Positions 752 to 38,712 of a stretch of DNA of 64,000 nt are shown piece after piece. The stretch spans positions 1,163,101 through 1,227,100 of the forward strand of contig NC_088654.1 in assembly GCF_964019385.1 (NCBI RefSeq), read 5' to 3'. The first letter of the stretch is position 1. Every line of letters starts with the position of its first letter. Under the pieces are notes generated by a model. The model had not been told where the DNA came from, did not search any database, and saw nothing but the letters and a program-made list of their open reading frames with translations. The stretch comes from Sycon ciliatum. Its lineage: Eukaryota; Porifera; Calcarea; Leucosolenida; Sycettidae. The translations under genes were made by a program, and so were the position numbers.

Positions 752-814
752 GCCTACTCAAGCTCAACTGATGAGGGGTGAATTCCCCGAAACACTGTGT
801 ATTGAGCAGGGAGT
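752..814 (+). ncRNA. hammerhead ribozyme, family 1 (unit A)
   Basis: The type I hammerhead core is complete. Stem I GCTCAA (762-767) pairs with TTGAGC (802-807) and is extended by ACTC/GAGT beyond an internal loop. Core CTGATGA is at 768-774. Stem II GGGG (775-778) pairs with CCCC (785-788). GAAA is at 789-792. Stem III is only ACA/TGT with a CTG loop. The nucleotide at the cleavage position is A801, giving a GUA triplet, which satisfies the NUH rule. Predicted cleavage is after 801. Such short stem III hammerheads are known from animal retroelements and often cleave best as dimers. Confidence 0.88.
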
Positions 815-1096
815 GGTGCTTTCTGGCAGGTTTGCCGAGTCGAAGGTTCGATGGACTTCTCGTGTGCTCTGGATGGCAGTCGTGAGTCAGTCAAGTGTCA
901 AGTAAAGTCGGCGGAATAGCGCGAGCTCCGAAGTGGGGAGCAAACCCTTTCTTACAAATAATATTATTATTATTTGTAAGAAAGGTTTGCTCCCCACACC
1001 GGAGCTCGCCGGGCTCGCCGGGCTCACCTTTCTTACAAATCATCGCCGAAGTCGCAACCACTACTTTGTGTTATTATTATTATTATTATTATTATT

Positions 1097-1380
1097 AACT
1101 GAGGGAAAGAGACAAACAGGAAAAGTCTGAAGAAAAAATTGACTGTCACCACCAGGACTCGAACCAGGGACCCTCGCTTGTAGCCAGCGATGCTCTAACC
1201 ACAGAGCTATGGTGTAGTCGTCGTCCCAGCGGAGGCAGCTCAACATTTTCTTCAGACTTCGTAACTCACACTTCCTGTGAATCCGCACAGGCGGGTGGGA
1301 CGCAGCCCTCACTGTACCCACACACTTCACGTACAAACTAGCACGCGGGGAGCCCCAAGTCACAAAATATTAACTGGTTT
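1097..1380 (-). mobile_element. tRNA-derived SINE-II (unit A, copy 1)
   Basis: Read on the minus strand, a tRNA-like core (1144-1216) contains a perfect A box region (TAGCTCnGTGGTTAGAGC) and B box (GGTTCGAGTCC). The anticodon stem pairs, but the acceptor and T stems carry mismatches and the loop lacks T33, so this is a SINE head and not a working tRNA. The sense strand ends ...TTTCCCTCAGTTAATAATAA, a (TAA)n tail merging with the tract at 1070-1096. The 5' flank (gggctgcgtcccacccgcc ... cacaggaagtgtga) is shared by all copies. A partial duplicate of the 5' part follows at 1381-1465. Confidence 0.75.
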
Positions 1381-1465
1381 GGCGGGTGGGACGCAGCCCT
1401 CACTGTAACCCACACACTTTACGTACAAACTAGCACGCGGGGAGCCCCAAGTCATAACATATTAA

Positions 1466-1852
1466 GGTGCCTGGGGCGGTACAACTTTTTTGGGAAAATT
1501 TGACTTCATTTTTGAGTTTATCGGCAAGGCAGAGATGAAATTTGAAAATGTTTTCGGGTGAATGTCTGGAGAAGAGCCTTCTCTAGCCTACTATAGTTTT
1601 ATTTTTACTTTTGGACTAAATTTGAAAACGTTTTATGAAAGGTTCGTGTTATTTTTTCACGGACCTTTCATAAAACTTTTTCAAATTTTGTCCAAAAGTA
1701 AAAATAAAACTATATGAGGCTAGAGAAGGCTCTTCTCCAGAGATTCAACAGAAAACATTTTCAAATTTCATCTCCACCTTGCCGATAAACTCAAAAATGA
1801 AGTCAAAATGTGATCAAAATAACCCCTAAAAAGTTGTACCGCCCCAGCCACC
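1466..1852. mobile_element. piggyBac-type foldback MITE (unit A)
   Basis: A 387-bp near-perfect palindrome with arms of about 185 bp. The ends read GGTGCCTGGGGCGGTACAAC and its complement. TTAA lies directly outside both ends (1462-1465 and 1853-1856). The empty site is visible in the same window (for example at 2130-2140, where one TTAA continues into ctggtttgag), so TTAA is a true target duplication. TTAA duplication is typical of the piggyBac superfamily. There is no coding capacity. The same element at the same site is in unit C but not in unit B. Confidence 0.85.
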
Positions 1853-1856
1853 TTAA

Positions 1857-2224
1857 CTGGTTTGAGGAAAAGAGACAAACGGGGAAAGTCTGAAGAAAAA
1901 ATTGACTGTCACCACCAGGACTTGAACAAGAGACCCTCGCTTGTAGCCAGCGATGCTCTAACCATTGAGCTATGGTGTAGTCGTCATCTCAGCAGAGGCC
2001 GTTCAACATTTTCTTCAGACTTCGTAACTCACACTTCCTGTGAATCCACACAGGCGGGTGGGACGCAGCCCTCACTGTAACCCACACACTTCACGTACAA
2101 ACTAGCACGCGGGGAGCCCCAAGTCATAAAATATTAACTGGTTTGAGGGAAAGAGACAAACGGGAAAAGTCTGAAGAAAAAATTGACTGTCACCACCAGG
2201 ACTCGAACCAGGGACCCTTGCTAG
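1857..2224 (-). mobile_element. SINE-II copies 2 and 3 (unit A), the last truncated
   Basis: Copy 2 (tRNA-like core 1908-1980) has a damaged B box (cttgaacaag on the plus strand). Copy 3 keeps only the 3' part and stops inside the tRNA-like core at 2224, where the (TAA)n tail of the minus-strand LINE begins. Copies are joined by the same junction (aatattaactggtttgag), so they form a tandem array. This array is also present in unit C and shorter in unit B. Confidence 0.65.
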
Positions 2225-6022: not shown

Positions 6023-6033
6023 CTTATTATTAT

Positions 6034-6041
6034 TACATGTA
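6034..6041. other. Tc1/mariner-type excision footprint (TA CATG TA)
   Basis: The sequence TACATGTA interrupts TTATTATTA/TATTATTATC at exactly the point where unit B carries a 511-bp element with CAGT...ACTG ends flanked by TA. A CATG remnant between duplicated TAs is the canonical scar left by Tc1 excision. Both flanks match unit B base for base over the adjacent tract. Confidence 0.85.
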
Positions 6042-6105
6042 TTATTATCATTATTAAGCTTCCGTGGAGATAAAAATGTAATCAACGCAATAAATAGAGT
6101 AAGCT

Positions 6106-6434: not shown

Positions 6435-6439
6435 AAGCT

Positions 6440-6723
6440 GCGCACTCAGTGCAAACACCATAAGCAAAACTTGTTTTCATGTAAATAAAGAAGCTTGTTC
6501 CTAAACGTTTTCGTCGCCATGTCATCAGAGGATTACTGGCAAATCAACAATAGCTCTTAACTCAATATATATATATATATGCACAATGCAAGTAATAAAT
6601 TAGACCCTAACTAGCGCGATAAAATGAGAGCTGAAAGAAACATTACACCATTCAACGATATCAGGTGACAAGAGATGCGATAAATTCACCACCAGAAAGT
6701 TACCATGCAACCACAAACGAGAA
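6440..6723 (-). other. 3' UTR of Penelope-like element 2, with hammerhead-like motif
   Basis: No gene. On the minus strand, 6532-6499 reads TCCT-CTGATGA-...-GAAA-ACGTT-T-AGGA, the order of a hammerhead with a 4-bp stem I and palindromic stem III (AACGTT). Stem II is almost absent. Unit B (24168-24201) keeps the more canonical CTGATGAG...CGAAA. A (TA)n tract lies at about 6567-6581. This follows the stop of the minus-strand Penelope-like ORF, a position where hammerheads are known in this group. Confidence 0.5.
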
Positions 6724-9261: not shown

Positions 9262-9436
9262 TTGGGTGGGTCATAAATATCAAAGATAAGTAAAGAAAGG
9301 GAAGCTTTGCGAAAACGAATTGTACAAGCCCAAAGCCAAACTCCTACAGTACTCCTCATGCATGACATTGTGATGGACTAGTTGACTTTTTGCTCGTTTT
9401 CGTTGCGCTTGCCTTCCCCTCTTTAACAGGTCTATC
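9262..9436 (-). mobile_element. fragment of repeat module IV upstream of Penelope-like gene 1
   Basis: Matches the minus-strand module at about 11755-11885 (gggtgggtcataaatatc ... gatggactagttgac) and then a short plus-strand piece (gctcgttttcgttgcgc). Since module IV carries a hammerhead and sits beside the Penelope-like ORF, it may be the pseudo-LTR of that element. That is inference. Confidence 0.5.
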
Positions 9437-11045
9437 ACTCCCCCAGATTGGAATGAAACAGAGTTCGTGAAACTTATGCTCATGGTCACGTCTGGTGTAG
9501 AGTTTTCATCCGACAATATTATGTACAAACAGAATGATGGAGTCGCCATGGGATCGCCTTTGGGACCAGTCTTGGCGAACATATTTGTTGGCTTCTGCGA
9601 GTCGTCTATTGACCCTTCACTTTGGCCATCAATGTACTGTCGTTTTGTTGACGATGTGTATTGTCACGACGACGACAAGGAAACCTGTGATAGGTTTATG
9701 GAAACTCTCAACTCCTTACATCCAGCATTAAAATTCACATCAGATGGTGAAAACAATGGTACCCTTTCTTTCCTGGATGTTAGTATTTCTCGTAACATGG
9801 ATACGCACAACATGGACACGACCATTTATGGAAAGCCCACTTTCACAGGCTTGTATATCCCATGGTCAAGTTTTACTCCAACTAAGTCCAAAACACACCT
9901 CGTCAAGGCCCTTGTCTACCGTGCACATAGGATATGTTCCCCTCATCTGCTGGACGAGGAACTAGAACGACTCTTAACCATAATGACAAAGAATGGCTAT
10001 CCAAAGACACTTTTAATGAAACTCATCAACCAGAAACCGACCTTGGAAAAGACGATCACTTTTGGGCCAGAAAGATGCCGTGTGGTACTACGTTTGCCAT
10101 GGGTTGGTGCCGGTTCTTCGTGCGTCGAGAAGGAGGTGCAGAATATTGTTTGTTTCTCTTATCCGTGTGTCAAATTGTATGTCATCTTTGGGACGACCCG
10201 TGCGTTCAGCTTGAAGAAGGACGTTCTACCTACCCTAAGCAAAAATAATTTAATCTATTTCTTTCAGTGCCGAAATTGTGAAAATCAGTACGTAGGTAGA
10301 ACCTTTCTGCACCTGGGCGCACAAACTCGTCAACATGTACCGTTAAATCTTGTCCCTGTAGCTGCACGTGGTTCTCGACCTCGGCGTAGTCGTAGTCGTC
10401 CACCGAAGTGTCCAGTGCAGTCTGTGTCTGAGGTGGACTTGTCCAAGTCTGCTGTGGATACGCTTGTCGACGCCTCCTCCTTTTCGTCGGGCGCAGAGCT
10501 GGAGCCAGCCCAAACAACAGTCAACAAGAAGAAGAGACCAATACGGAAACCACCGAAACTGACAATCGAGCCCCGGACGAGTCACCAGAAGTCAATTGAG
10601 GAGACGAATTGATGACGAATCAAAAGAACCAATACTGGAAGTGACAACAACGGTTAATGTGAAGAAACGAGGTAGACCACGGAAGCAGGACAAACTGGAC
10701 GTGGAGCAGCACACTGATCTCGACCGAGGCAATTCGAATTGCAGGGACGCAGGGCGTAATGAGAGAGATTCGCAAGCGGCAATATCGGAGGTGACAACGG
10801 CCAAGTCGTCGGGTCAGGGAAACGGTACCTCGGCAATCAAGTGTCACCTGTCGGTCAGTGCTAGTTGTCGTGAGTGGTATTCCGATGATGTATTCTCTGT
10901 TTCGTCGCGTGGTAGGTCTTTGTTACATCTTGCCGTGTTGGAAGCTTTGTACATACGTGAGTAAGACCCTGAGCTTTGTGTTCAGAAGGAGAATGTGTTG
11001 TCTTTGCAGTTGTTTGGCACTGTTCGTCGTGAAGGTGCGAAATAG
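9437..11045 (+). pseudogene. Penelope-like element 1: RT + GIY-YIG with AT-hook insertion (unit A)
   Basis: 5'-truncated. The RT part shows DGVAMGSPLGPVLANIF and catalytic FVDD (9644-9655), then a linker (ITFGPERC...LPWVGAG). The GIY-YIG starts at IYFFQCRNCENQYVGRT. The LxxRxxxH Arg is Gln here (LGAQTRQH); unit B keeps Arg. After QHVP comes an insertion of about 170 residues with AT-hooks (SRPRRSRSRPPK, KKRPIRKPPK, KKRGRPRKQ), then the nuclease C-terminus (AIKCHLS, FSVSSRGRSLLHLAVLEALY, LCVQKENV). A frameshift near 10560 is shared with unit B. Penelope-like elements encode RT and GIY-YIG; the AT-hook insertion is unusual. Confidence 0.85.
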
Positions 11046-11393
11046 ATCTCTTGATATTTCTCTCTTTTTCTTGTCACCACTTTTTTGTCACTTATTGGAT
11101 TTGCATGCTGTTTTCTTGATTCTTCACATCTATTTTTTCGTGTCACTTCTACACATAATTGGAGTGATATATTTCTGAACTTCTTTTCCTTATAGTTGTA
11201 GTCTTTTAGCTTATTTTCATCATTCCCTGTAGTATTTTGACAAGAAGGGAACGAAAACGTTCAATACTTTGACACATGTCCTAATGGGCTGGTGGTGACT
11301 CTTGCGTAGATGCATGCGTAGATAATACATTTTTTGTAATATTTTCTGCCTCCGTCCTACTTTCAAATTATTATTATTATTATTATTATTATT
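11046..11393 (+). other. 3' UTR of Penelope-like element 1 with hammerhead-like motif and (ATT)n end
   Basis: No gene. 11231-11268 reads AGTATT-TTGACAAG-...-GAAAACGTT-C-AATACT. Stem I pairs perfectly, and stem III is the palindrome AACGTT. The core differs from CTGATGA, but C3 and G8 have changed together to T and A, which would keep that tertiary base pair. The element ends on (ATT)n at 11367-11393. Confidence 0.5.
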
Positions 11394-12360
11394 GTAGAAG
11401 AGAAAAGGACATATGGATACGAGTTAAGAGTAACTCTCCATCACTGTCACATGATACTTTATACAGTCAGAAAGTGCAATAACTAGGCACAAAACTGACA
11501 GAGTACTGAAACATTCGACGTCCTGACACCTAGCTTCAACACATCTCCGTAGCGCTAACCGAAAGCCTTCCAACTTGGAAGGTTCAAGGTTATGGAAAGA
11601 CCAAAGCGGGGAAGGCAAGAGGAACGAAAACGAGCAAAAGCTACAGTCCCAACTGAACAAAGAATGTCGATTGTTACTGGACGATGACGAGACCAGTACG
11701 ATATTTGACAAAGCGGTCTAACTACAATTCGAAGCAGCAAAGCAGCACACCACCCAACTTGGGTGGGTCATAAATATCAAAGATAAGTAAAGAAAGGGAA
11801 GCTTTGCGAAAACGAATTGTACAAGCCGAAAGCCAAACTCCTACAGTACTCCTCATGCATGACATTGTGATGGACTAGTTGACTACAAAACAAGTTGTTT
11901 CACACGACGTACGTTTCGCCGTATGGTTCGTGACGGCTCATCAGGTGTGCAATATGAAACTCGGATGTTGAGCCATAAATAAATGTAGAAGAGAAAAAGG
12001 ACATATGGATACGAGTTAAGAGTAACTCTCCATCACTGTAACATGATACTTTATACAGTCAGAAAGTGCAATAACTAGGCACAAAACTCGTTTTCGTTGC
12101 GCTTGCCTTCCCCTCTTTGGTCTTTCCATAACCTTGAACCTTCCAAGTTGGAAGGCTGTCGGTTAGCGCTACGGAGATGTGTTGAAGCTAGGTGTCAGGA
12201 CGTGGAATGTTTCAGTACTCTGTCAGTTTTGTGCCTAGTTTTTGCACTTTCTGACTGTATAAAGTATCATGTTACAGTGATGGAGAGTCACTCTTAACTC
12301 GTATCCATATGTCCTTTTCTCTTCTACATTTATTTATGGCTCAACATCCGAGTTTCATAT
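11394..12360 (-). mobile_element. module IV, tandem LTR-like repeat with hammerhead (unit A)
   Basis: On the minus strand a block of about 100 bp (gtgcctagttattgcac ... ccttttctcttctaca) occurs twice in direct orientation, near 12085-11985 and 11495-11394, about 590 bp apart. Between them lie the hammerhead, gacccacccaagttggg and gtagttagaccgctttg. From about 12080 to 12355 the same block runs on the plus strand and stops at (ATT)n. Tandem LTR-like repeats with a hammerhead are typical of Penelope-like pseudo-LTRs and retrozymes. No credible ORF. Confidence 0.65.
11901..11949 (-). ncRNA. hammerhead ribozyme, family 3 (module IV)
   Basis: On the minus strand: stem I CACAC (11949-11945) with GTGTG (11905-11901), core CTGATGA (11944-11938), stem II GCCGT (11937-11933) with ACGGC, then GAAA, then stem III ACG/CGT in the self-complementary ACGTACGT, and cleavage nucleotide C (plus-strand G11906) in a GUC triplet. 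All helices pair perfectly. The two-base loop of stem III makes a dimeric form likely. Predicted cleavage is on the 3' side of that C. Confidence 0.88.
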
Positions 12361-12716
12361 TATTATTATTATTATTCAAAGTATCAGTCGGGGAAGTGAA
12401 CTGCCTGAAAAGAGAAAAAAACGCCAGACCCACCAGGACTCGAACCTGGGACCCTGCTTGTCATGAGCAATGCTCTAACCACTGAGCTATGGGACCAGGC
12501 TGAACCTAGAAGGCGCTGACAAGTTTTTCACTCCAAAGGTTCAGCCTGGTCCCATAGCTCAGTGGTTAGAGCATTGCTCATGACAAGCAGGGTCCCAGGT
12601 TCGAGTCCTGGTGGGTCTGGCGTTTTTTTCTCTTTTCAGGCAGTTCACTTCCCCGACTGATATTTTGAATTTGAAGTTCTCCCAATCCTTTCCAAATTAT
12701 TATTATTATTATTATT
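12361..12716. mobile_element. head-to-head inverted dimer of SINE-I between two (ATT)n tracts
   Basis: A minus-strand SINE-I (tRNA-like core 12426-12497) faces a plus-strand copy (core 12547-12618). The heads are separated by about 45 bp, and the 3' ends point outward into (ATT)n at about 12358-12375 and 12697-12719. The arms are nearly identical over about 130 bp. The plus copy gives the clearest SINE-I structure: tRNA-like head, T-run, body ending tcctttccaaatt, (ATT)n. Confidence 0.8.
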
Positions 12717-13520
12717 ATTTGAAACTCGGATGTTGAGCCATAAATAAATGTAGAAGAGAAAAGGACATATGGATACGAGTTAAGAGTAACTCTCCATCAC
12801 TGTAACATGATACTATATACAGTCAGAAAGTGCAATAACTAGGCACAAAACTGACAGAGTACTGAAACATTCGAAGTCCTGACACCTAGCTTCAACACAT
12901 ATCCGTAGCGCTAACCGACAGCCTTCCAACTTGGAAGGTTCAAGGTTATGGAAAGACCAAAGAGGGGAAGGCAAGCGCAACGAAAACGAGCAAAAGCTAC
13001 AGTCCCAACGGAACAAAGAATGTCGATTGTTACTGGACGATGACGAGAGGAGTACTGTAGGAGTTTGACTTTCGGCTTGTACAATTCGTTTTCGCAAAGC
13101 TTCCCTTTCTTTACTTATCTTTGATATTTATGACCCACCCAAGTTGGGTGGTGTGCTGCTTTGCTGCTTCGAATTGTAGTTAGACCGCTTTGTCAAATAT
13201 CGTACTGGTCTCGTCATCGTCCAGTAACAATCGACATTCTTTGTTCTGTTGGGACTGTAGCTTTTGCTCGTTTTCGTTGCGCATTGCCTTCCCCTCTTTG
13301 GTCTTTCCATAACCTTGAACCTTCCAAGTTGGAAGGCTGTCGGTTAGCGCTACGGAGATGTGTTGAAGCTAGGTGTCAGGAGGTCGAATGTCTCAGTACT
13401 CTGTCAGTTTTGTGCCTAGTTATTGCACTTTCTGACTGTATATAGTATCATGTTACAGTGATGGAGAGTTACTCTTAACTCGTATCCATATGTCCTTTTC
13501 TCTTCTACATTATTATTATT
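12717..13520. mobile_element. inverted dimer of module IV between two (ATT)n tracts (unit A)
   Basis: Module IV runs minus at about 12721-13045 and plus at about 13160-13507, with arms of about 320 bp, both free ends meeting (ATT)n. The centre contains gacccacccaagttggg. It ends before the hammerhead (gaaactcgg is the last part kept). Unit B has the same dimer at 31056-31865. Confidence 0.75.
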
Positions 13521-14530
13521 ATTCAAACAGTAGTTTGGAGGCGGTGGAAAAACAGTTTCGTACACAATATTTGCATGCAACGACGCAAATCCACACAATT
13601 CAGTAGACACTTCCTTTCTATCAAACGTTTTCTTTCCCTTCTCTTCAGGATAGTACAGGGAATGTTGGAAATTTGGAAAAACACATAACTATATAGAAAA
13701 AATAGAGAAAAAGTCAACACTTCAACATAGGCGATAAAATGAGGATCCAGCTCTGCATAGAGTCTTGGTTGAGCGGAATCGGATCTTTGCGTCATAATAC
13801 CGTACAAATCTGAGGGGAACCCGGGGAGTCGCGGGTACTCTTGGATCAAAAACAATGGTGCCCTGCCTCGAGACCGGCCTTGCACTGGTGTGGAGTGTAC
13901 GCATGACATCAGAAGATCCGATTCCGCTCGACCAAGACCCTATGCAGAGCTGGATCGGCGTTGCACACTCTGGGGGGGGTTATGTACTCTTGACCCAATG
14001 AATAGAGTAAGCTGCGCACTCAGTACAAACACCATTAGTAAAACTTGTTTTCATGTTAATATAGTAGTATTTTGACAAGAAGGGAATGAAAACGTTCAAT
14101 ACTTTGAATTATGTCCTAATTGGCTGGTGGTGACTCTTGCGTAGATGCATGCGTAGATAACAACTTTTTTTGTATTATTTTTATTACTTATTTTTAATTT
14201 TTACAAGAGGTCGGAGGCGGATAATACTTTAAAAACGAAGGTACGTTTTGGGTCGTAAGTATCCACGCAACACCCATCCATCCTCATTATTAGTTTCCTT
14301 CGAGTTTTGTGTCGTGCTGAACTTGATAATTTTCCACCTTGGCACGAGTGTTGTTATCTCATTTTCTTTACGCTATATAAGTTTTAGTCTTTCCAACTTG
14401 AGCCATTCCCTGTATAATCCTTGATGAGAAGGGACCGAAAACGTTCGGATACTTTTGACAAGTGCTTTATTTTGACTTGATGTGTGTTGCGTGGATACTT
14501 GCGACCCAAAACTTACCTTCGTTTTTAAAT
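13521..14530. other. no gene; Penelope-like flanks, an inverted repeat and two hammerhead-like motifs
   Basis: An inverted repeat (about 13742-13784 and 13911-13955; ctctgcatag / ctatgcagag) surrounds a GC-rich spacer, and an 8-G run lies at 13972-13979 (17 G in unit B). Motif 14066-14103 repeats the AGTATT...AATACT form. Motif 14413-14452 reads ATCC-TTGATGA-G...C-CGAAA-ACGTT-C-GGAT, with 4-bp stem I and C3 changed to T. TCCCT upstream could also pair with AGGGA of the stem II region. No ORF is convincing. Confidence 0.45.
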
Positions 14531-15939: not shown

Positions 15940-16560
15940 CATTATGCAGAGCTCACGGACTTGTCAGTTTGAGCACTCCGGCAAGGTATGTTCGGGCCTG
16001 GTTTAAGTAGGGCTCTAAATAGGGCTTTGCAAAATATATTTTTCATTGCTATCAGGTTCGGCCTCATTTTAGCTGTTCTGCTCTGATAAATCCACAAAGG
16101 ACGAAACAGGTCTGGAACAGGTCTGTCCGCAGATTGAGTATTTTGCTCCTGCTCTTGTAGCAGTTGAGCACTCTGGCAAGGTACGTTCTGGCCTGGATTA
16201 AATAGGGCCTTGACAATTTTATTTTTCATTGCCATCAGTTTTGGCCTCATTTCCTCTGTGCTACGCTGATGAGTCCACAACGGACGAAACAGGTCTTTCC
16301 GCAGATTGAGGATTTCGCTACTGCTCTTCTAGCAGTTGAGTACTCATGTGTGGGGTAGCGCTTTTGGCGCTTGTGATATGCAGAGCTCACTGACTTGTCA
16401 GTTTAAGCACTATGACAGGGTACGTTTGGCCTGGTTTACTTAAAATAGGGTTTTGGATTTTTTCATTGTCATCATGTTTGGCCTTATTTCCTCTGTGCTG
16501 CGCTCATGAGTCCACAAAAGACGAAAGAGGTCTGTCTGCAGACTGAGTACTTATCTAGGG
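15940..16560 (+). repeat. hammerhead-bearing tandem repeat, three degenerate monomers (unit A)
   Basis: Three related blocks, each gcagagctcac..cttgtcag ... ggttcggcctcattt..., end in a hammerhead-like core. The first (16078-16132) has CTGATAA, losing G8, and an internal duplication in stem III. The second (16253-16311) has CTGATGA-GTCC/GGAC-GAAA, with CCTC/GAGG extending stem I and one stem I mismatch. The third (16498-16541) has CTCATGA, losing G5. Unit B and the region at 44.2 kb have the same three-block order. Confidence 0.7.
16253..16311 (+). ncRNA. hammerhead ribozyme, family 2 (unit A, block 2)
   Basis: CTACG (16261-16265) pairs with CGCAG (16300-16304) except for one A.C. Core CTGATGA is 16266-16272, stem II GTCC/GGAC, GAAA 16286-16289. 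Stem III is weak (ACA against TTT), and the cleavage nucleotide is C16299. It is the only one of the three with an intact core, but the weak stem III makes activity doubtful. Confidence 0.6.
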
Positions 16561-17087
16561 TATTGTGTTGTTGAGGAATACATGAAATTTCAAGGAGATG
16601 TGATGCAGCAAAGTAAAAATATTTCAAAAATCATACCCCTGGGGACCCTTTGGACCCCACAACCCGGAATGACGGTTAACTTACAGTTGCTCAAGCTTTG
16701 GTAGGTTAGCAAATACATTTGTAGGAAGACTTGTAAGTTGATTCCTGTCCAGGCCTCTACAAAGGGAGAGGAGAAAAGGGTACTAAACATATTTGCGCAT
16801 ATTTGGGTTCAGTGATGGCCGCTGACATACCAGGCGGCAAACCTTTATAGGAGGAGTAGAACACAAGTCAAGGATCTGAAAACCATTGCATGAAAAAAAG
16901 AATGTGATGAAAAAAATTGGAACCCTACCCAAACACAGCAAAATTCAATGAAGCGAGAACTGTAATAGAATAAGCATGCCATACACTCTCAGTAGTATGA
17001 CAGAAAAGAAACATGCTAAGAGAAATGACATAATGTACTTGTACCTAACAATATCACACTCCAGCACACCACAGGACGACGGGTCAT
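16561..17087. other. no gene; 5' flank of the RT-type ORF (unit A/B boundary)
   Basis: AT-rich sequence without a supported ORF, shared with 36640-37155 and, more diverged, with 44661-45060. ccccttttctcctctccc-type stretches and hairpins are present, but I see no promoter I can defend. Confidence 0.4.
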
Positions 17088-18125
17088 TTGTTTGTGAGCC
17101 TGAGGCGGTGGCTGGTCTGGGTGAGGAAGAGGGTGGATAGTTGGTCGCGGGAGTTGCGGAAGCTGTCTCGGTTTGCCAAGACGGAAACACATGCTGCCTA
17201 TGCAGCACTAACCTATGGTTTACGGTGTAGGTGGGTGTACCTTTTCCGCACTGTGCCCCTCCCGGATGAGTGCATCAAGAGCTTAGACAATATCATCGCT
17301 TTCGAGTTTTTCCCAGCACTGACGGGTCGTGCTGCCTTCACCGAGGAGGACTTACGCATGCTAAGACTGCCCACCCGGTTGGTTGGTCTGGAAATCCTGT
17401 CGTTCCAGAGGATGAGTCAGACGGAACGTGGCGCGTCAGTGAAAATGACAGAGGCTCAGGTTGCTGAGCTAGTCAGCCAGAGCAACACATCCTGGGAAAG
17501 ACGCAAGACTGAATGCATAAGGGAGGCTGCTTTTAACGCAAAAAGATGCACCGGCAAGCAGCGAGCTGCATCAAGTGAAAATGACTTCAAACTGGTGGAG
17601 CAGGCTGCATCGCTTGATGGGGCTTGTCTACTTGGCCACCTGGCGTCCCGAGGGGTGTCCAGCTGGCTCAACTCGCTGCCACTGCGGGACCATGATTACC
17701 ACCTCTCGAAAGGAGATTTCCGAGATGCTTTTGCGCTGCGGTACGACTGGGCACTGGCGGATGTCCCGTTAACCTGCTCCTGTGGCCGTCCATTTAGTGC
17801 AGCCCATGCCATGAGCTGCCTGACTGGAGGATTCCCGACAATACGGCATATCGAAGTGCGAGACATCCTGGCTGATTTGCTGACTGAAGTGTGTGTGGAT
17901 GTTGCTGTGGATCCAGCGCTCGCGCCACTCTCTGGTGAGGTGTTTGTCGCCGCGTCTACGAATACAGCGGATGATGCCCGGGCAGACATTCGCGCGAGGG
18001 GGCTGTGGACCCGGGCCCAGAACGCCTACATGGACGTTCGAGTATTTCACCCTGATGCGCCTTCCTATGCTGCGTTTTGGCAGAGCACGAGCGCAGAAAG
18101 AAATCTGAGTTTGCTGAATGCATAA
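17088..18125 (+). CDS. RT-type retroelement, C-terminal ORF, 345 aa (unit B)
   Basis: Longest clean copy with 37156. The N-terminal third (PHAAYAAL-like, FFPALTGR, RLPTRLVGLEIL) matches the region just after the RT domain in retroelement polyproteins common in cnidarian and sponge genomes. The middle is helical. The C-terminal part has CSCGRPFSAAHAMSC, RHIEVRDILADLLTEV, then DIRARGLWTRAQNAYMDVRVFHP. The RT domain itself is absent, so the start is a truncation and ATG use is doubtful. Like the other copies it changes frame at the end before KSEFAERIINVDRG. DVRV could be part of a restriction-like nuclease fold; that is unproven. Confidence 0.7.
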   Translation: MFVSLRRWLVWVRKRVDSWSRELRKLSRFAKTETHAAYAALTYGLRCRWVYLFRTVPLPDECIKSLDNIIAFEFFPALTGRAAFTEEDLRMLRLPTRLVGLEILSFQRMSQTERGASVKMTEAQVAELVSQSNTSWERRKTECIREAAFNAKRCTGKQRAASSENDFKLVEQAASLDGACLLGHLASRGVSSWLNSLPLRDHDYHLSKGDFRDAFALRYDWALADVPLTCSCGRPFSAAHAMSCLTGGFPTIRHIEVRDILADLLTEVCVDVAVDPALAPLSGEVFVAASTNTADDARADIRARGLWTRAQNAYMDVRVFHPDAPSYAAFWQSTSAERNLSLLNA

Positions 18126-18228: not shown

Positions 18229-18344
18229 CAATTATTATTATTATTATTATTTGTAAGAAAGGTTTGCTCCCCACACCGGAGCTCGCCGGGCTCGCCGGGC
18301 TCACCTTTCTTACAAATCATCGCCGAAGTCGCAACCACTACTTC

Positions 18345-18378
<34 letters not shown>
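18229..18378 (+). repeat. GC-rich end of the hammerhead module between (ATT)n tracts
   Basis: tttgtaagaaagg ... ctcgccgggctcgccgggctcac ... gtcgcaaccactacttcgta, with (ATT)n at about 18229-18251 and 18346-18377. It is the 3' end of the module without its ribozyme. The retroelement 3' flank differs from units A and C from about 18158 on. Confidence 0.6.
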
Positions 18379-18548
18379 GAAGTAGTGGTTGCGACTTCGG
18401 CGATGATTTGTCAGAAAGATTTGCTCCCCACACCGGAGCTCGCGCTATTCCGCCGACTTTACTTGACACTTGACTGACTCACGATTGCCATCCAGAGCAC
18501 ACGAGAAGTCCATCGAACCTTCGACTCGGCAAACCTGTAAGAAAGCAC

Positions 18549-18612
18549 CACTCCCTGCTCAATACACAGTGTTTCGGGGAATTCACCCCTCATCAGTTGA
18601 GCTTGAGTAGGC
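18549..18612 (-). ncRNA. hammerhead ribozyme, family 1, minus strand (unit B, left arm)
   Basis: GCTCAA (18602-18597), CTGATGA, GGGG/CCCC, GAAA, ACA/TGT, then A and TTGAGC (to 18557), all identical to the unit A ribozyme on the opposite strand. Confidence 0.85.
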
Positions 18613-18648
18613 TGAGGAAGATTGTGCCTGAAGAGCACCACTTCCTCA

Positions 18649-18711
18649 GCCTACTCAAGCTCAACTGATGAGGGGTGAATTCCCCGAAACACTGTGTATT
18701 GAGCAGGGAGT
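18649..18711 (+). ncRNA. hammerhead ribozyme, family 1 (unit B, right arm)
   Basis: GCTCAA 18659-18664 with TTGAGC 18699-18704; core, stem II and stem III as in unit A. Predicted cleavage after A18698. Confidence 0.87.
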
Positions 18712-18890
18712 GGTGCTTTCTTACAGGTTTGCCGAGTCGAAGGTTCGATGGACTTCTCGTGTGCTCTGGATGGCAATCGTGAGTCAGTCAAGTGTCAAGT
18801 AAAGTCGGCGGAATAGCGCGAGCTCCGGTGTGGGGAGCAAATCTTTCTGACAAATCATCGCCGAAGTCGCGACCACTACTTCGTACTGTT

Positions 18891-19349
18891 GTGCCCAGCG
18901 CGGGCTTGCGACTAGTTGGTTTGGAGGTGACAGCGTTGCGAATGACCGAGGGTCCTCAACGTCTGTCTCACCGTCCAGGAGCGACACTGACTCACGCTGC
19001 TATCTGGTGTTCACGAGGTGTTTGTCGCGCTGGAAGCGGAGCGTCTCTGTAAGTTTGTATCCCTGGTGATGTTTGTGCCTGGAGAGCACTATATAAGTGG
19101 TGCTCTTCAGGCACAATCTTCCTCAGCCTACTCAAGCTCAACTGATGAGGGGTGAATTCCCCGAAACACTGTGTATTGAGCAGGGAGTGGTGCTTTTTTA
19201 CAGGTTTGCCGAGTCGAAGGTTCGATGGACTTCTCGTGTGCTCTGGATGGCAATCGTGAGTCAGTCAAGTGTCAAGTAAAGTCGGCGGAATAGCGCGAGC
19301 TCCGGTGTGGGGAGCAAATCTTTCTGATTATTATTATTATTATTATTAA
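18891..19349 (+). mobile_element. hammerhead module, second plus copy (unit B)
   Basis: After about 70 bp not seen elsewhere (gcgcgggcttgcgac...), the module runs from caccgtccaggagcgac to ggggagcaaatctttctga and ends in (TTA)n. The tail starts about 50 bp earlier in the module than in unit A, so the junction with the microsatellite is not fixed. Confidence 0.7.
19126..19188 (+). ncRNA. hammerhead ribozyme, family 1 (unit B, third copy)
   Basis: GCTCAA 19136-19141, TTGAGC 19176-19181; core and stems identical to the unit A copy. Confidence 0.87.
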
Positions 19350-19722
19350 CTGAGGGAAAGAGACAAACAGGAAAAGTCTGAAGAAAAAATTGACTGTCAC
19401 CACCAGGACTCGAACCAGGGACCCTCGCTTGTAGCCAGCGATGCTCTAACCACTGAGCTATGGTGTAGTTGTCATCCCAGCGGAGGCCGTTCAACGTTTT
19501 CTTCAGACTTCGTAACTCACACTTCCTGTGAATCCACACAGGCGGGTGGGACGCAGCCCTCACTGTAACCCACACACTTCACGTACAAACTAGCACGCGG
19601 GGAGCCCCAAGTCATAAAATATTAACTGGTTTGAGGGAAAGAGACAAACGGGAAAAGTCTGAAGAAAAAATTGACTGTCACCACCAGGACTCGAACCAGG
19701 GACCCTTGCTAGTATTATTATT
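19350..19722 (-). mobile_element. SINE-II array (unit B), no MITE
   Basis: One full copy (tRNA-like core 19395-19467) and one 3' piece ending at about 19708 where the LINE tail begins. Compared with units A and C, one SINE copy and the piggyBac-type MITE are missing; the site aatattaactggtttgag is uninterrupted. Confidence 0.72.
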
Positions 19723-24058: not shown

Positions 24059-24392
24059 AAGCTTCCGTGGAGATAAAAATGTAATCAACGCAATAAATAG
24101 AGTAAGCTGCGCACTCAGTGCAAACACCATAAGCAAAACTGGTTTTCATGTAAATAAAGAAGCTTGTTCCTAAACGTTTTCGTCGCCATCTCATCAGAGG
24201 ATTACTGGCAAATCAACAATAGCTCTTAACTCAATATATATATATATATGCACAATGCAAGTAATAAATTAGACCCTAACTAGCGCGATAAAATGAGAGC
24301 TGAAAGAAACATTACACCATTCAACGATATCAGGTGACAAGAGATGCGATAAATTCACCACTAGAAAGTTACCATGCAACCACAAACGAGAA
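24059..24392 (-). other. 3' UTR of Penelope-like element 2 (unit B) with hammerhead-like motif
   Basis: The minus-strand motif 24201-24168 has the canonical CTGATGAG...CGAAA, stem I TCCT/AGGA and palindromic stem III AACGTT. Stem II is poor. No insertion of the family 3 LINE, unlike unit A. Confidence 0.5.
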
Positions 24393-25112: not shown

Positions 25113-25443
25113 CCAGAGTTTGTATCCCTGGTGATGTTTGTGCCCGGAGAGCACTATATAAGTGGTGCTCTTCAGGCACAATCTTCCTCAGCCTACTCAA
25201 GCTCAACTGATGAGGGGTGAATTCCCCGAAACACCGTGTATTGAGCAGGGAGTGGTGCTTTCTTGCAGGTTTGCCGAGTCGAAGGTTCGATGGACTTCTC
25301 GTGTGCTCTGGATGGCAGTCGTGAGTCAGTCAAGTGTCAAGTAAAGTCGGCGGAATAGCGCGAGCTCCGGTGTGGGGAGCAAACCCTTTCTTACAAATTA
25401 TCGCCGAAGTCGCAACCACTACTTCGGATTATTATTATTATTA
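25113..25443 (+). mobile_element. hammerhead module fused to Penelope-like element 2 (unit B)
   Basis: Starts mid-module at gtttgtatccctggtgatg, keeps the TATATAA hairpin and ribozyme, and ends ...accactacttcgga then (TTA)n. The junction with coding sequence has no visible duplication. Confidence 0.7.
25191..25253 (+). ncRNA. hammerhead ribozyme, family 1 (unit B, fourth copy)
   Basis: GCTCAA 25201-25206 with TTGAGC 25241-25246. Stem III loop is CCG instead of CTG; all paired and core positions are unchanged. Predicted cleavage after A25240. Confidence 0.87.
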
Positions 25444-26028
25444 CTTGGTCCTAGAATTGCGATCAACAGAACGAGCTGAACCGACATTTTCACAAAGGCT
25501 TTTATTGTATTCAAAAAAACGAGTGTATACGAAGGCAGTGAAGAACATGTAAGAAAGAAAAAATGTGATATGGAAGAAATGATGAACAAAAAATTGTACT
25601 TCGAACTAGTTTTCTAGTTTTAGTTTTTGGTTGGCCATGGTGTCATATCTTGTGTCACAGTATACTATTAGTCTTTACAAGTTCGTTAAGTGCTTTCGCA
25701 GTTTTTCCTGTTTTTACCTTAGTGCTAGGATTATCATTTTCATAGGTGTTGTTTCTTCTCACTCCATTTCTCTTTATTAGTATCTTTCTGGATTGTTTTT
25801 CATTAGTACAACGTAGCTTCCTGAGGAGTGTTGTGCGAAAACTAGTTCGAAGTACAATTTTTTGTTCATCATTTCTTCCATATCACATTTTTTTTTTCTT
25901 TCTTACATGTTCTTCACTGCCTTCGTATACACTCGTTTTTTGAATACAATAAAAGCCTTTGTGAAAATGTCGGTTCAGCTCGTTCTGTTGATCGCAATTC
26001 TAAAACTATTGTCGCCTCGACGCCTATT
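25444..26028. repeat. long inverted repeat, about 165-bp arms (unit B only)
   Basis: Arms 25451-25614 and 25837-26002 (tagaattgcgatcaac ... gaactagttttc and complement) around about 220 bp of AT-rich spacer. It begins with ACTTGGTCC directly after (ATT)n, the same nine bases as the end of the next element, so the two may be one nested transposon. Confidence 0.75.
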
Positions 26029-27298: not shown

Positions 27299-27350
27299 TT
27301 GAAAATTCTCCGTGAAGTCCAAATTTGAAATTAATATTATTATTATTATT

Positions 27351-27525: not shown

Positions 27526-27526
<1 letters not shown>

Positions 27527-28925
27527 TGGAAAGAATTGGGAGAACTTTAAAGGATCAGTCGGGGAAGTGAACTGCCTGAAAAGAGAAAAAACGCCAGACC
27601 TACCAGGACTCGAACCTGGGACCCTGCTTGTCATGAGCAATCCTCCAACCACTGAGCTATGGGACCAAGCTGAACCCAGGAGGCGCTGACAAGTTTTTCA
27701 CTCCAAAGGCAGCTCATAACACGTGCCACACATACTGATGGCACTTGGGTCTTTTTCCCTCCCCCAGGGGACCAACCACGGTCAGTTTCTGGAAACTACC
27801 AGAGGTGAAAGAAAGCGATTAAATTTGGAAAGGACTGGGAGAACTTCAAATTCAAAGGATCAGTCGGGGACGTGAACTGCCTGAAAAGAGAAAAAAACGC
27901 CAGACCCACCAGGACTCGAACCTGGGACCCTGCTTGTCATGAGCAATGCTCTAACCACTGAGCTATGGGACCAGGCTGAACCTAGAAGACGCTGACAAGT
28001 TTTTCACTCCAAAGGTAGCTCACAACAGTCCTGGTGGGTCTGGCGTTTTTTTCTTTTTTCAGGCAGTTCACTTCCCCGACTGATCCTTTGAATTTGAAGT
28101 TCTCCCAATCCTTTCCAAATTTAATCACTTTCTTTCACGTGCCACACATACTGATGGCACTTGGGTCTTTTTCCCTCCCCCAGGGGAACAACCACGGTCA
28201 GTTTCTGGAAACTACCAGAGGTGAAAGAAAGTGATTAAATTTGGAAAGGATTGGGAGAACTTCAAATTCAAAGGATCAGTCGAGGAAGTGAACTGCCTGA
28301 AAAGAGAAAAAAACCGCCAGACCCACCAGGACTCGAACCTGGGACCCTGCTTGTCATGAGCAATGCTCTAACCACTGAGCTATGGGACCAGGCTGAACCC
28401 AGAAGGCGCTGACAAGTTTTTCACTCCAAAGGCAGCTCACAACACGTGCCACAAATACTGATGGCACTTGGGTCTTTTTCCCTCCCCCAGGGAACCAACC
28501 ACGGTCAGTTTCTGGAAACTACCAGAGGTGAAAGAAAGTGATTAAATTTGGAAAGGATTGGGAGAACTTCAAATTCAAAGGATCAGTCGGGGAAGTGAAC
28601 TGCCTGAAAAGAGAAAAAACCGCCAGACCCACCAGGACTCGAACCTGGGACCCTGCTTGTCATGAGCAATGCTCTAACCACTGAGCTATGGGACCAGGCT
28701 GAACCCAGAAGGCGCTGACAAGTTTTTCACTCCAAAGGCAGCTCACAACACGTGCCACACATACTGATGGCACTTGGGTCTTTTTCCCTCCCCCAGGGAA
28801 TCAACCACGGTCAGTTTCTGGAAACTACCAGAGGTGAAAGAAAGTGATTAAATTTGGAAAGGATTGGGAGAACTTCAAATTCAAAGGATCAGTCGGGGAA
28901 GTGAACTGCCTGAAAAGAGAAAAAA
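27526..28925 (-). mobile_element. SINE-I array, four copies (unit B)
   Basis: Minus-strand tRNA-like cores at 27596-27667, 27902-27973, 28319-28390 and 28625-28696, spaced 306, 417 and 306 bp. The first has a damaged A box. The 417-bp spacing includes the same SINE inverted repeat as unit A. B has gained two copies relative to A. Confidence 0.75.
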
Positions 28926-31865: not shown

Positions 31866-32890
31866 TCAAACAGTAGTTTGGAGGCGGTGGAAAAACCGTT
31901 TCGTAATCAATATTCGCATGCAACGACGCAAATCCACACAATTCAGTAGACACTTCCTTTCTATCAACGTTTTCTTTCCCTTCTCTTCAGGATAGTACAG
32001 GGAATGTTGGAAATTTGGAAAAACACATAACTATATAGAAAAAAATAGAGAAAAAGTCAACACTTCAACATAGGCGATAAAATGACGATCCAGCTCTGCA
32101 TAGGGTCTTGGTCGAGCGGAATCGGATCTTTGCGTGATAATACCGTACAAATCTGAGGGGAACCCGGGGAGTCGCGGGTACTCTTGGATCAAAAACAATG
32201 GTGCCCTGCGTCGAGACCGGCCTTGCACTGGTGTGGAGTGTACGCATGACATCAGAAGATCCGATTCCGCTCGACCAAGACCCTATGCAGAGCTGGATCG
32301 GCGTTGCACACTCTGGGGGGGGGGGGGGGGGTTATGTACTCTTGACCCAATGAATAGAGTAAGCTGCGCACTCAGTACAAACACCATTAGCAAAACTTGT
32401 TTTCATGTAAATATAGTAGTTTTTTGACAAGAAGGGAATGAAAACGTTCAATACTTTGAATTATGTCCTAATTGGCTGGTGGTGACTCTTGCGTAGATGC
32501 ATGCGTAGATAACAACTTTTTTTGTATTATTATTTTTATTACTTATTTTTAATTTTTACAAGAGGTCGGAGGCGGATAATACTTTAAAAACGAAGGTACG
32601 TTTTGGGTCGTAAGTATCCACGCAACACCCATCCATCCTCATTATTATTTTCCTTCGAGTTTTGTGTCGTGCTGAACTTGATAATTTTCCACCTTGGCAC
32701 GAGTGTTGTTATCTCATTTTCTTTACGCTATACAAGTTTTAGTCTTTCCAACTTGAGCCATTCCCTGTATAATCCTTGATGAGAAGGGACCGAAAACGTT
32801 CGGTTACTTTTGACAAGTGCTTTATTTTGACTGGATGTGTGTTGCGTGGATACTTGCGACCCAAAACTTACCTTCGTTTTTGAATTATTA
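31866..32890. other. no gene; Penelope-like flanks (unit B)
   Basis: Counterpart of 13521-14530, with a 17-G run at 32315-32331. Hammerhead-like motif near 32768-32806 (TTGATGA ... CGAAAACGTT, stem I with one mismatch). Confidence 0.4.
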
Positions 32891-32894
32891 TTAT

Positions 32895-33859: not shown

Positions 33860-33863
33860 TTAA

Positions 33864-34851: not shown

Positions 34852-35264
34852 TTAACATTTTTTACTACGTTACCAGTTTATTGGGGTCTTTTTGCAATCC
34901 AGGAACGTTTTGGGTGGTATTCTTGCAAACTCTCCATTTTATATAACTATTGTGCTGTGTTACCTTCCCATAGACCAATGCTTTGACCAAACTGCATTTG
35001 TTGACAGCTCTGAAGTTTGCCGGGATAATTTGCAAGTTGCAAAATACCAGCCAAAACGATCCTGGGGTCCAAAAGGACCCCAATATACTGGGAGCATAGG
35101 AAAAAAGGCCACATGGAATGAGGGATAATGCCTGTAGGAGAACATTTTCTTGTAGGGCCTCATACGTCAGTGGATGTCATTCATGTGTTCGGTGAACATG
35201 GAGATAATTACCAAAACTAACCTCCAACCCAAATTAATTATGGATCTCGGTTATGCCGTTTTCA
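34852..35264. other. no gene (unit B)
   Basis: Counterpart of 15528-15939; hairpin GGGGTCC...GGACCCC retained. Confidence 0.35.
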
Positions 35265-35876
35265 TTATGCAGAGCTCACGGACTTGTCAGTTTGAGCACT
35301 CCGGCAAGGTATGTTCGGGCCTGGTTTAAGTAGGGCTCTAAATAGGGCTTTGCAAAATATATTTTTCATTGCTATCAGGTTCGGCCTCATTTTAGCTGTT
35401 CTGCTCTGATAAATCCACAAAGGACGAAACAGGTCTGGAACAGGTCTGTCCGCAGATTGAGTATTTTGCTCCTGCTCTTGTAGCAGTTGAGCACTCTGGC
35501 AAGGTACGTTCTGGCCTGGATTAAATAGGGCCTTGACAATTTTATTTTTCATTGCCATCAGTTTTGGCCTCATTTCCTTTGTGCTACGCTGATGAGTCCA
35601 CAACGGACGAAACAGGTCTTTCCGCAGATTGAGGATTTCGCTACTGCTCTTCTAGCAGTTGAGTACTCTTGTGTGGGGTAGCGCTTTTGGCGTTTGTGTT
35701 ATGCAGAGCTCACTGACTTGTCAGTTTAAGCACTATGACAGGGTACGTTTGGCCTGGTTTAATTAAAATAGGGTTTTGGATTTTTTCATTGTCATCATGT
35801 TTGGCCTTATTTCCTCTGTGCTGCGCTCATGAGTCCACAAAAGATGAAACAGGTCTGTCTGCAGGTTGAGTACTTA
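35265..35876 (+). repeat. hammerhead-bearing tandem repeat, three monomers (unit B)
   Basis: Cores at 35401-35455 (CTGATAA), 35576-35634 (CTGATGA, intact core) and 35821-35864 (CTCATGA). The core defects of monomers 1 and 3 are the same as in unit A, so they predate the duplication. Confidence 0.7.
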
Positions 35877-35881
35877 TCCAG

Positions 35882-36634
35882 CAGGCGCGTACGCAGGGGG
35901 GGTTTCCCGTTGCCCGGAAACCCCCCAAATGTTCAAAACGAGCAACGTTTTTGGGCATTTTTTGGTAGGGCGCATGATCGATCTGGCAAGAATAGCAAAA
36001 CTTCAAAAGATCATAACTCATTCAAATCTCGCTCAAATCCAACGATCCAAATATCCAGGTCGAATAGAAAACTCTCAGCTGTCGGTTGAAACAATTTGCG
36101 AAGCGCTGCGAGCAATGTATCGTGAGATAAATCATTCGTAAGTCGAGCCGCGATCTCGGCAATTTCAAAAGCGCACAGCGCGACTTGAGTATTGAGAATT
36201 TCGTCGCGCTAATTTGCTCAAATTTGCAGGGGCTTCACTTGTGATATTTTCAAGAGTACACAGCAAAAAAATCGAAACTCTGCGATCGAGAAAAACGAAA
36301 ACGTTGGAGCAGGACGCGTTTGGGCCTGTTTGGGGCATTTTTCGCACCGTCGCTGCACTCTACCGCTATAGCCTATAGCGCTGGATATGTACATGACTGT
36401 ACTGTGTCCTGGCTATCATGGTCGACCTCATTCTCTCCCGGGTACCTTTCCACTTCCAGGAAGCCCAAGACAATGAAGATTGAGTGAGTAGAATTGAAGG
36501 TATGATCCAAACAACACGAAAAAATGCATAATTTTTTGAAAATGTCCTAGGGCTCTTTAGAAAGGTAAAACTTAAAACTCATTGTTTGGATTCGCTTGGA
36601 AACCCCCCTAGAGGTGACCCTGCGTACGCGCCTG
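35882..36634. mobile_element. DNA transposon, non-autonomous, CAGGCGCGTACGCAGG ends (unit B only)
   Basis: Terminal inverted repeats CAGGCGCGTACGCAGG / CCTGCGTACGCGCCTG, then a ggggtttcc / ggaaaccccc sub-terminal pair. TCCAG lies on both sides (35877-35881, 36635-36639); unit A has the uninterrupted site (tctag). The ends look hAT-like, but the visible duplication is 5 bp, not 8, so the superfamily is open. No transposase. Confidence 0.75.
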
Positions 36635-36639
36635 TCCAG

Positions 36640-37155
36640 GGTATTGTGTTGTTGAGGAATACATGAAATTTCAAGGAGATGTGATGCAGCAAAGTAAAAA
36701 TATTTCAAAAATCATACCCCTGGGGACCCTTTGGACCCCACAACCCGGAATGACGGTTAACTTACAGTTGCTCAAGCTTTGGTAGGTTAGCAAATACATT
36801 TGTAGGAAGGCTTGTAAGTTGATTGAAGTTCAGGAATCTGCAAAGGGAGAGGAGAAAAGGGGACTAAACATATTTGTGAATATTTGGGTTCAGTGATGGC
36901 GGCTAACATACCAGGCGGTAAACCGTAATAGGAGGAATAGAACACAAGTCATGGACTGAAAACAATTGCATGAAAAAAAGAATGTTATAAAAAAAATTGG
37001 AACCCTACTCAAACGCAGCAAAATTCAATGAAGCGAGAACTGTAATAGAATAAGTATGCCATACACTCTCAGTAGTATGACAGAAAAGAAACATGCTAAG
37101 AGAAATGACATAATGTACTTGTACCTAACAATATCACACTCCAGCACACCACAGG
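36640..37155. other. no gene (B/C boundary)
   Basis: Counterpart of 16561-17087; AT-rich flank before the RT-type ORF. Confidence 0.35.
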
Positions 37156-38205
37156 ATGACGGGTCATTTGTTGGTGAGCCTGAAGCGGTTGCTGGTCTGG
37201 GTGAGGAAGAGGGTGGATAGTTGGTCGCGCGAATTGCGGAAGCTGTCTCGGTTTGCCAAGACGGAGCCACATGCTGCCTATGCAGCACTGACCTATGGTT
37301 TACGGTGTAGGTGGGTGTACCTTTTCCGCACTGTGCCCCTCCCGGGTGAGTGCGTCAAGAGCTTAGACAATATCATCGCTTTCGAGTTTTTCCCAGCACT
37401 GACGGGTCGTGGTGCCTTCACCGAGGAGGACTTACGCATGCTGAGACTGCCCACCCGGTTGGTTGGTCTGGAAATCCTGTCGTTCCAGAGGATGAGTCAG
37501 ACGGAACGTGGCGCGTCAGTGAAAATGACAGAGGCTCAGGTTGCTGAGCTAGTCAGCCAGAACAACACATCCTGGGAAAGACGCCGGACTGAATGCATAA
37601 GGGAGGCTGCTTTTAACGCAAAAAGATGCACCGGCAAGCAGCGAGCTGCATCAAGTGAAAATGACTTCAAACTGGTGGAGCAGGCTGCATCGCTTGATGG
37701 GGCTTGTCTACTTGGCCACCTGGCGTCCCGAGGGGTGTCCAGCTGGCTCAACTCACTGCCACTGCGGGACCATGATTACCACCTCTCGAAAGGAGATTTC
37801 CGTGATGCTTTTGCGCTGCGGTACGACTGGGCACTGGCGGATGTCCCGTTAACCTGCTCCTGTGGCCGTCCATTTAGTGCAGCCCATGCCATGAGCTGCC
37901 TGACTGGAGGATTCTCGACAATACGGCATATCGAAGTGCGAGACATCCTGGCTGATTTGCTGACTGAAGTGTGCGTGGATGTTGCTGTGGAGCCAGTGCT
38001 CGCGCCACTCTCTGGTGAGGTGTTTGTCGCCGCGTCTACGAATACAGCGGATGATGCCCGGGCAGACATTCGCGCGAGGGGGCTGTGGACCCGGGCCCAG
38101 AACGCCTACATGGACGTTCGAGTATTTCATCCTGATGCGCCTTCCTATGCTGCGTTTTGGCAGAGCACGAGCGCAGAAAGAAATCTGAGTTTGCTGAACG
38201 CATAA
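37156..38205 (+). CDS. RT-type retroelement, C-terminal ORF, 349 aa (unit C)
   Basis: Third copy, uninterrupted, with the same Cys/His and DVRV parts as 17088-18125 and the same terminal frame change. It agrees with unit A at several sites where B differs (for example EPVLAPL rather than DPALAPL), supporting an A-C relationship. No RT domain upstream. Confidence 0.7.
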   Translation: MTGHLLVSLKRLLVWVRKRVDSWSRELRKLSRFAKTEPHAAYAALTYGLRCRWVYLFRTVPLPGECVKSLDNIIAFEFFPALTGRGAFTEEDLRMLRLPTRLVGLEILSFQRMSQTERGASVKMTEAQVAELVSQNNTSWERRRTECIREAAFNAKRCTGKQRAASSENDFKLVEQAASLDGACLLGHLASRGVSSWLNSLPLRDHDYHLSKGDFRDAFALRYDWALADVPLTCSCGRPFSAAHAMSCLTGGFSTIRHIEVRDILADLLTEVCVDVAVEPVLAPLSGEVFVAASTNTADDARADIRARGLWTRAQNAYMDVRVFHPDAPSYAAFWQSTSAERNLSLLNA

Positions 38206-38235
38206 TCAATGTGGATCGTGGTACATTCACTCCTC

Positions 38236-38712
38236 TCACCGTCCAGGAGCGACACTGACTCACGCTGCTATCTGGTGTTCACAAAGTGTTTGTCGCGCTG
38301 GAAATGGAGCGTCTCTGCAAGTTTGTATCCCTGGTGATGTTTGTGCCTGGAGAGCACTATATAAGTGGTGCTCTTCAGGCACAATCTTCCTTAGCCTACT
38401 CAAGCTCAACTGATGAGGGGTGAATTCCCCGAAACACTGTGTATTGAGCAGGGAGTGGTGCTTTCTTGCAGGTTTGCCGAGTCGAAGGTTCGATGGACTT
38501 CTCGTGTGCTCTGGATGGCAGTCGTGAGTCAGTCAATTGTCAAGTAAAGTCGGCGGAATAGCGCGAGCTCCAGTGTGGGGAGCAAACCTTTCTTACAAAT
38601 AATATTATTATTATTTGTAAGAAAGGTTTGCTCCCCACACCGGAGGTCGCCGGGCTCGCCGGGCTCACCTTTCTTACAAATCATCGCCGAAGTCGCAACC
38701 ACTACTTCGTAA

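Follow-up and report, generated by a model that had tools for sequence, protein, structure and literature searches.

In a 64,000-nt stretch of the Sycon ciliatum genome (NC_088654.1, positions 1,163,101 to 1,227,100, forward strand; hereafter the window), six copies of a 46-nt motif, c1 to c6, are well supported by sequence and modelled structure as type I hammerheads, predicted ribozymes. The repeat which carries them, termed family 1, is probably a 477-nt retrozyme lacking long terminal repeats (LTRs), a reading which draws on the sequence and its computed folds. A window scan recovered a 26-nt hammerhead core with 0 mismatches in 6/6 copies, at the places and on the strands given in the original prediction, and the same core gave 0 matches in 100 shuffles of the window. 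The CUGANGA and GAAA core, the A15.1-U16.1 pair, H17 and three helices with stem I open are present in every copy. The 46-nt motif is the same throughout except in c5, where one base differs (CCG replaces CTG in the stem III loop), as had been anticipated for the sole variation, and the change is neutral in the monomer. Predicted cleavage in c1 falls such that the 3' product would begin at 802, again in agreement with the original prediction. A strict type I descriptor, drawn up after the motif had been seen, matches eight window sites, consisting of the six copies, 11901-11949(-) and 25816-25853(+), while only one of 150 dinucleotide shuffles gave a match, a single one. The Rfam model RF00163 fits c1 (762-807), the one copy tested singly, from end to end (model positions 1-45) and leaves every pair intact, a match obtained only with a 64-base input. 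The motif bears every sequence feature of a hammerhead and is predicted to self-cleave. Identity across the six copies says little about selection because c1, c4 and c6 derive from a single duplicated locus. The exact core has 0 matches in viral contigs, where a relaxed core has two, the 131 bases around each presenting the core in other surroundings; the relaxed core has 0 matches in prokaryote genome contigs.

As read from the sequence, the motif consists of a 6-bp stem I, a 4-bp stem II, a 3-bp stem III closed by a 3-nt loop and a GUA triplet. The reading of stem III stands, whereas a stem I of 6 bp proved incomplete, the helix extending through an internal loop to approximately 751-820. 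This internal loop and the 6-nt loop II seen in the fold are candidates for a loop I-loop II contact. A constrained fold formed stems I and II and not stem III, and supports only the former two. The two-molecule fold is a double hammerhead at -33.3 kcal/mol, compared with -11.3 per monomer, in which stem III pairs between strands via ACACUGUGU, palindromic save for its centre. Stem III is near-palindromic (ACACYGTGT) and folding prefers the double hammerhead; the sole natural change, U to C in c5, sits on the single unpaired centre of the dimer stem III palindrome. The adjacent hairpin with TATATAA at its tip is present, although as 19 bp over 44 nt rather than the 15 bp first described and in four of the six copies rather than all: it is intact in c1, c4 and c6, has one broken pair in c5 and is cut off in c2 and c3.

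The proposed monomer is defined by c3 and c4, whose cleavage sites lie 477 bp apart, the intervening unit having a GC content of 53.5%. On the circular unit the c3-c4 block extends from position 420 through one whole unit and on to 152, c3 passing the usual end point (unit 187) without an ATT array and running on into c4. Folded as a circle, the unit is 71% paired with a z of -4.5 versus 100 shuffles. No LTRs were seen in the window self-comparison. Matches of four Penelope-like query proteins overlap no family 1 block, and the unit contains no Penelope gene. Similarly, no tRNA-like head was detected in the unit by Rfam at gathering or E<=10, tRNA matches lying elsewhere. The carrier had been described as a short interspersed nuclear element (SINE)-like, (ATT)n-ended repeat; its ATT/AAT ends are borne out, whereas a tRNA-derived origin, for which Rfam gave 0 matches in the unit, was rejected, and the most fitting reading of the carrier is a non-LTR retrozyme.

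The ends of the genomic copies are not randomly placed. All five blocks (c1, c2, c3-c4, c5 and c6) run through the predicted cleavage site, and therefore the template was uncleaved, multimeric or circular; reverse copying into DNA from RNA of a circular or repeated kind has likewise been proposed for the animal retrozymes already known. All five end at unit 152-187 beside (ATT)n or (AAT)n. Among the listed ends, 11/11 3' ends are no more than 2 nt from an ATT/AAT array and every 5' end (11/11) is at least 34 nt away, while positions within 6 nt of such an array account for 1.5% of the window. Two of these 3' ends (962 and 38603) are interruption points of nested inserts and several are segmental duplicates, so that about five independent events lie behind the 11. 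The repeated module had been presented as six copies; the six sites stand, but they are not independent insertions. Self-comparison indicates that c1, c4 and c6, which share flanks on both sides, are one ancestral locus multiplied by ~17.5-21 kb duplications, c2 and c3 lie next to c4 in inverted orientation to one another, and c5 is separate from the others and immediately follows a Penelope-like fragment, giving about three insertion loci rather than six. c2, c3 and c4 differ mutually at 0-1 of 200-205 sites, compared with 3-8 differences from c1, c5 and c6 and 5-7 among the latter; this closeness is compatible with a single event copied from a repeated template, or with gene conversion. Between 1 and 43000, roughly the first two-thirds of the window, the sequence consists of repeats offset by ~17.5-21 kb; these are present as two or three partial copies and contain nested transposon insertions.

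One family 1 copy is itself interrupted by another. The nested insert in c1 has the same structure as that in c6 (38601-38666), which is flanked by a 15-bp duplication, and a remnant of the structure is found at ~18246-18304. The duplicated 14-15 bp sequence occurs once, without ATT, in c5 and c3, with one base different in c3. The insert looks like a target-primed insertion with an added tail, a local inverted duplication of neighbouring sequence being a possible alternative origin. The proposal that ATT arrays served solely as pre-existing targets is weakened by this insert, whose uninterrupted target in c5 and c3 lacks an array.

Table 1. Family 1 features and related elements in the window (unit, position on the 477-nt unit).
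Feature	Position	Strand	Details	Basis
Hammerhead c1	762-807	+	predicted cleavage 801/802	core match, strict descriptor, Rfam
Hammerhead c2	18557-18602	-	head to head with c3	core match
Hammerhead c3	18659-18704	+	predicted cleavage 18698/18699	core match
Hammerhead c4	19136-19181	+	predicted cleavage 19175/19176	core match
Hammerhead c5	25201-25246	+	loop CCG	core match
Hammerhead c6	38404-38449	+		core match
Hammerhead with extended stem I	751-820	+	6 bp, 2x3 internal loop, 9 bp including one bulge	folding
44-nt palindromic hairpin with TATATAA	699-742; 19073-19116; 25138-25181; 38341-38384			folding, copy comparison
Predicted retrozyme monomer, 477 nt	18699-19175	+	cleavage site to cleavage site	self-comparison
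Direct tandem c3-c4, 1.44 units	18641-19348	+	ends in (ATT)n at 19327-19348	
Copy holding c1	605-1097	+	unit 268 to 160, then to ~187, plus (TTA)9; interrupted by nested minus-strand insert	
Truncated copy holding c2	18376-18643	-	unit 397 to 187; 3' end faces ATT/AAT array 18346-18375	
Copy holding c5	25117-25443	+	unit 354 to 185 plus (ATT)5	
Copy holding c6	38234-38754	+	unit 268 to 160, then ~187 past nested insert; segmental duplicate of c1 locus	
Nested truncated copy	960-1026	-	unit 120-160, AAT/ATT end, between 14-bp duplicates 946-959 and 1027-1040	
Penelope-like coding region, possible helper family	9404-11039	+	frame changes near 10564	protein similarity
Type I hammerhead candidate	11901-11949	-	26.8 bits, best hammerhead score in the window, below cut-off	Rfam

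The retrozyme reading joins the computed motif, dimer fold, copy ends, single tandem and co-resident Penelope-like genes to cleavage, circularisation, a promoter and a helper enzyme, which we infer. The unit would be transcribed, perhaps from the TATATAA hairpin 5' of the ribozyme, and multimeric transcripts would cut themselves 3' of the GUA triplet, a reaction that the near-palindromic stem III should make most efficient in the dimer. Cleaved monomers would be ligated into circles and copied in trans by a reverse transcriptase (RT), most likely from a Penelope-like element. Reverse transcription, primed at the target site, would start internally near unit 152-187 and proceed round the circle or along a concatemer across the ribozyme junction, an early stop being usual and leaving copies that are truncated 5' and finish 3' in an ATT/AAT array. 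That the copies actually record such transposition of an animal retrozyme, with an internal start at unit 152-187, an ATT/AAT tail added or joined and passage through the re-ligated junction of RNA in circular or concatemeric form, at times for more than one round (c3-c4, with c2 perhaps an inverted product of the same event), is put forward tentatively, at somewhat less than an even chance.

The helper question centres on the Penelope-like genes of the window. The window's own Penelope-like open reading frame (ORF) pieces fall below the Pfam cut-offs (RVT_1, 23.7 versus 29.6 bits; GIY-YIG, 13.8 versus 22.6 bits). Their protein relatives, five of which were scanned out of 120 listed, pass for RVT_1 in 3/5 and for GIY-YIG in 1/5 and match the two domains in the expected order, P0130 being above the cut-off for both; the window regions are assigned as Penelope-like because of these matches in the relatives. 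Penelope-like elements are the likely helpers of family 1. Long interspersed nuclear elements (LINEs) and tRNA-like SINEs, some adjoining ATT arrays, are likewise present in the window. Penelope-like elements are named only as likely candidate helpers of retrozymes in PMC7761336. One Penelope element is reported to favour ATT when it cleaves its target and to begin reverse transcription at an internal position (PMC11167929).

Several observations weigh against a 477-nt retrozyme. Its main weakness is an 81-nt segment, 18885-18965, found once in the window and only between c3 and c4. Because this segment occurs nowhere else in the window and the tandem is single (1.44 units, period 477), the unit could represent a shorter linear element joined to unrelated DNA. 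At 477 nt and 53.5% GC, family 1 also departs from metazoan retrozymes, which are about 150-450 nt with <50% GC in the accounts of PMC7229834 and PMC7761336 and are usually arranged in tandem arrays, whereas family 1 consists mostly of dispersed truncated copies with one partial tandem. For the monomer, the hammerhead (-10.8 kcal/mol) is 0.5 kcal/mol less stable than the minimum free energy fold, which is a different structure (-11.3). The Penelope element of PMC11167929 inserted in vitro without need of hammerhead cleavage, and RNA ends at the cleavage site were not seen for it in that report. Finally, RF00163 scores c1 at 20.5 bits, below the gathering score of 34; Rfam reported none of the six copies across the whole window at gathering or E<=10, nor c1 at E<=10 over 660-960. 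The weak score of c1 probably reflects the very short stem III, and the gathering score is an annotation convention, not a condition of activity.

Other origins of family 1 were weighed against the same evidence. Family 1 might instead be a SINE-like linear element with an (ATT)n tail, ~400 nt long (from unit 268 round to 187), which a LINE mobilises and in which the hammerhead is a passenger or trims the 5' end. This is unlikely but has points in its favour, as homology of c1, c6 and c4 starts at one common point, family 1 copies exhibit the ATT tails and 5' truncation that LINE/SINE retroposition typically gives, and tRNA-like SINE sequences occur beside ATT arrays nearby. This is difficult to reconcile with the absence of an ATT array where c3 joins c4, with a unit that lacks a tRNA-like head, and with four blocks (c1, c3-c4, c5 and c6) which hold sequence 5' of TATATAA that would be absent from a transcript begun there. 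It is quite improbable that family 1 has no separate unit and represents pseudo-LTR fragments of an autonomous Penelope-like element. In favour of this, the window contains coding matches to Penelope-like proteins, hammerhead-like motifs lie ~210 nt past two of them and c5 is placed immediately after a Penelope-like fragment, yet the lack of overlap between family 1 blocks and Penelope matches noted above, and the different sequence and 0-1 bp stem II of the motifs near those matches, argue otherwise.

The module also lies directly 3' of a LINE-like RT fragment in c1 and c6 (ORFs 17049-18125 and 37129-38205; matching piece 1-609), as would be expected of a hammerhead in the 3' untranslated region of that element. 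This origin is the least credible considered here, as protein relatives P0001 and P0003 extend ~77 residues past the junction, the copy at 17550 extends eight codons, a short TCTCA microhomology marks the junction and c5 has no LINE-like fragment upstream. That the hammerhead forms part of the neighbouring LINE-like ORF was rejected on the same grounds, the relatives extending beyond the junction into a C-terminus missing here. An inactive, chance hammerhead-like motif inside a repeat would accord with the weak Rfam score of c1 and with copies too similar for covariation to show, but is highly improbable given the eight strict-descriptor sites against one match in the shuffles.

Non-LTR retrozymes with type I hammerheads have been described in animals (PMC7229834), and with these, as presented by Cervera and de la Pena (2020), family 1 shares the hammerhead type, a unit a few hundred nt long, no visible LTR, a target duplication of >4 bp (here 14-15 bp, in one nested copy) and a highly self-paired predicted circle. 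Unlike the metazoan retrozymes of that account, family 1 has ATT/AAT ends, the TATATAA hairpin and a sponge host; the main text of PMC7229834 contains the words 'sponge' and 'porifera' 0 times, and no report of a hammerhead in sponges was found among the top-ranked matches in one open-access library. Size, GC content, TATATAA hairpin, ATT ends and sponge host are new here. Protein matches of the window accord with a calcareous sponge: the best ones bearing a name are to Sycon ciliatum (P0047, 48% over 84%) and to EukProt entries carrying the Sycon prefix 'scpid' (P0004, 58% over 64%; P0014, 80% over 37%), and P0034 is the closest of all (93% over 76%). The minimal hammerheads of Penelope-like elements and Terminons similarly have a weak stem III and are thought to work via dimers (PMC7761336, PMC11167929), but family 1 differs from them as described in PMC7761336 in that it possesses a stem III, its stem I is long and its stem II measures 4 bp. 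Plant LTR retrozymes share a non-autonomous nature, a promoter 5' of the ribozyme and cleavage which removes the 5' end of the transcript (PMC12029980, PMC7229834), whereas they are described as carrying type III hammerheads within LTRs and forming circles of 600-800 nt (PMC12029980), with no LTRs seen in family 1. Likeness can also be drawn, by description only and not by sequence, to a further element. Schistosome Sm-alpha is a SINE-like repeat with a type I hammerhead.

Other hammerhead-like motifs and repeats are present in the window. A relaxed descriptor, run without a shuffle control, detected 12 distinct sites. Six belong to family 1; of the remaining six, five have a fully palindromic stem III (31961-31995 being the exception), including 11901-11949(-) with ACGTACGT. 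The minus-strand sites 6499-6532, 13618-13653, 24168-24201 and 31961-31995, with a stem II of 0-1 bp, are weak candidates and belong to two segmentally duplicated pairs. One pair, 6499-6532 and 24168-24201, is found 210 nt past Penelope-like matches and shares their strand; the other, 13618-13653 and 31961-31995, occupies sequence ~87% like 11184-11854, just past another such match. The motif at 25816-25853(+) lies inside foldback sequence; many foldback palindromes occur, at 921-1009, 1462-1856, 12087-12990, 18305-18418, 25452-26002 and 38753-38880, and in some of them (ATT)n separates the two arms or is found terminally. Imperfect tandem repeats at 15969-16558, 35292-35881 and 44234-44664 contain nine hammerhead cores or remnants, 103-237 bp apart within arrays, RF00163 scoring 20.2 bits at 16264 and 35587. 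They look like a second retrozyme-like family whose copies are apparently decayed, since none of the cores passes the strict or relaxed descriptor. Eleven Rfam tRNA matches at gathering mark tRNA-like SINE heads (several in 8538-28695, and at 1147-1214 and 19398-19465), two of which lie in a tandem repeat, 28136-28925, of period 306. All Rfam miRNA-like matches in the window are below their cut-offs.

The enzyme which moves animal retrozymes is described as an open question in PMC7761336. An internal-initiation model can be tested directly on family 1, given where its copies end, that they read through the cleavage site and that one of them spans more than one unit. If that model is true, the copies would constitute genomic evidence for a circular template and connect it, in an animal of an early-branching lineage, with an enzyme of the Penelope type.

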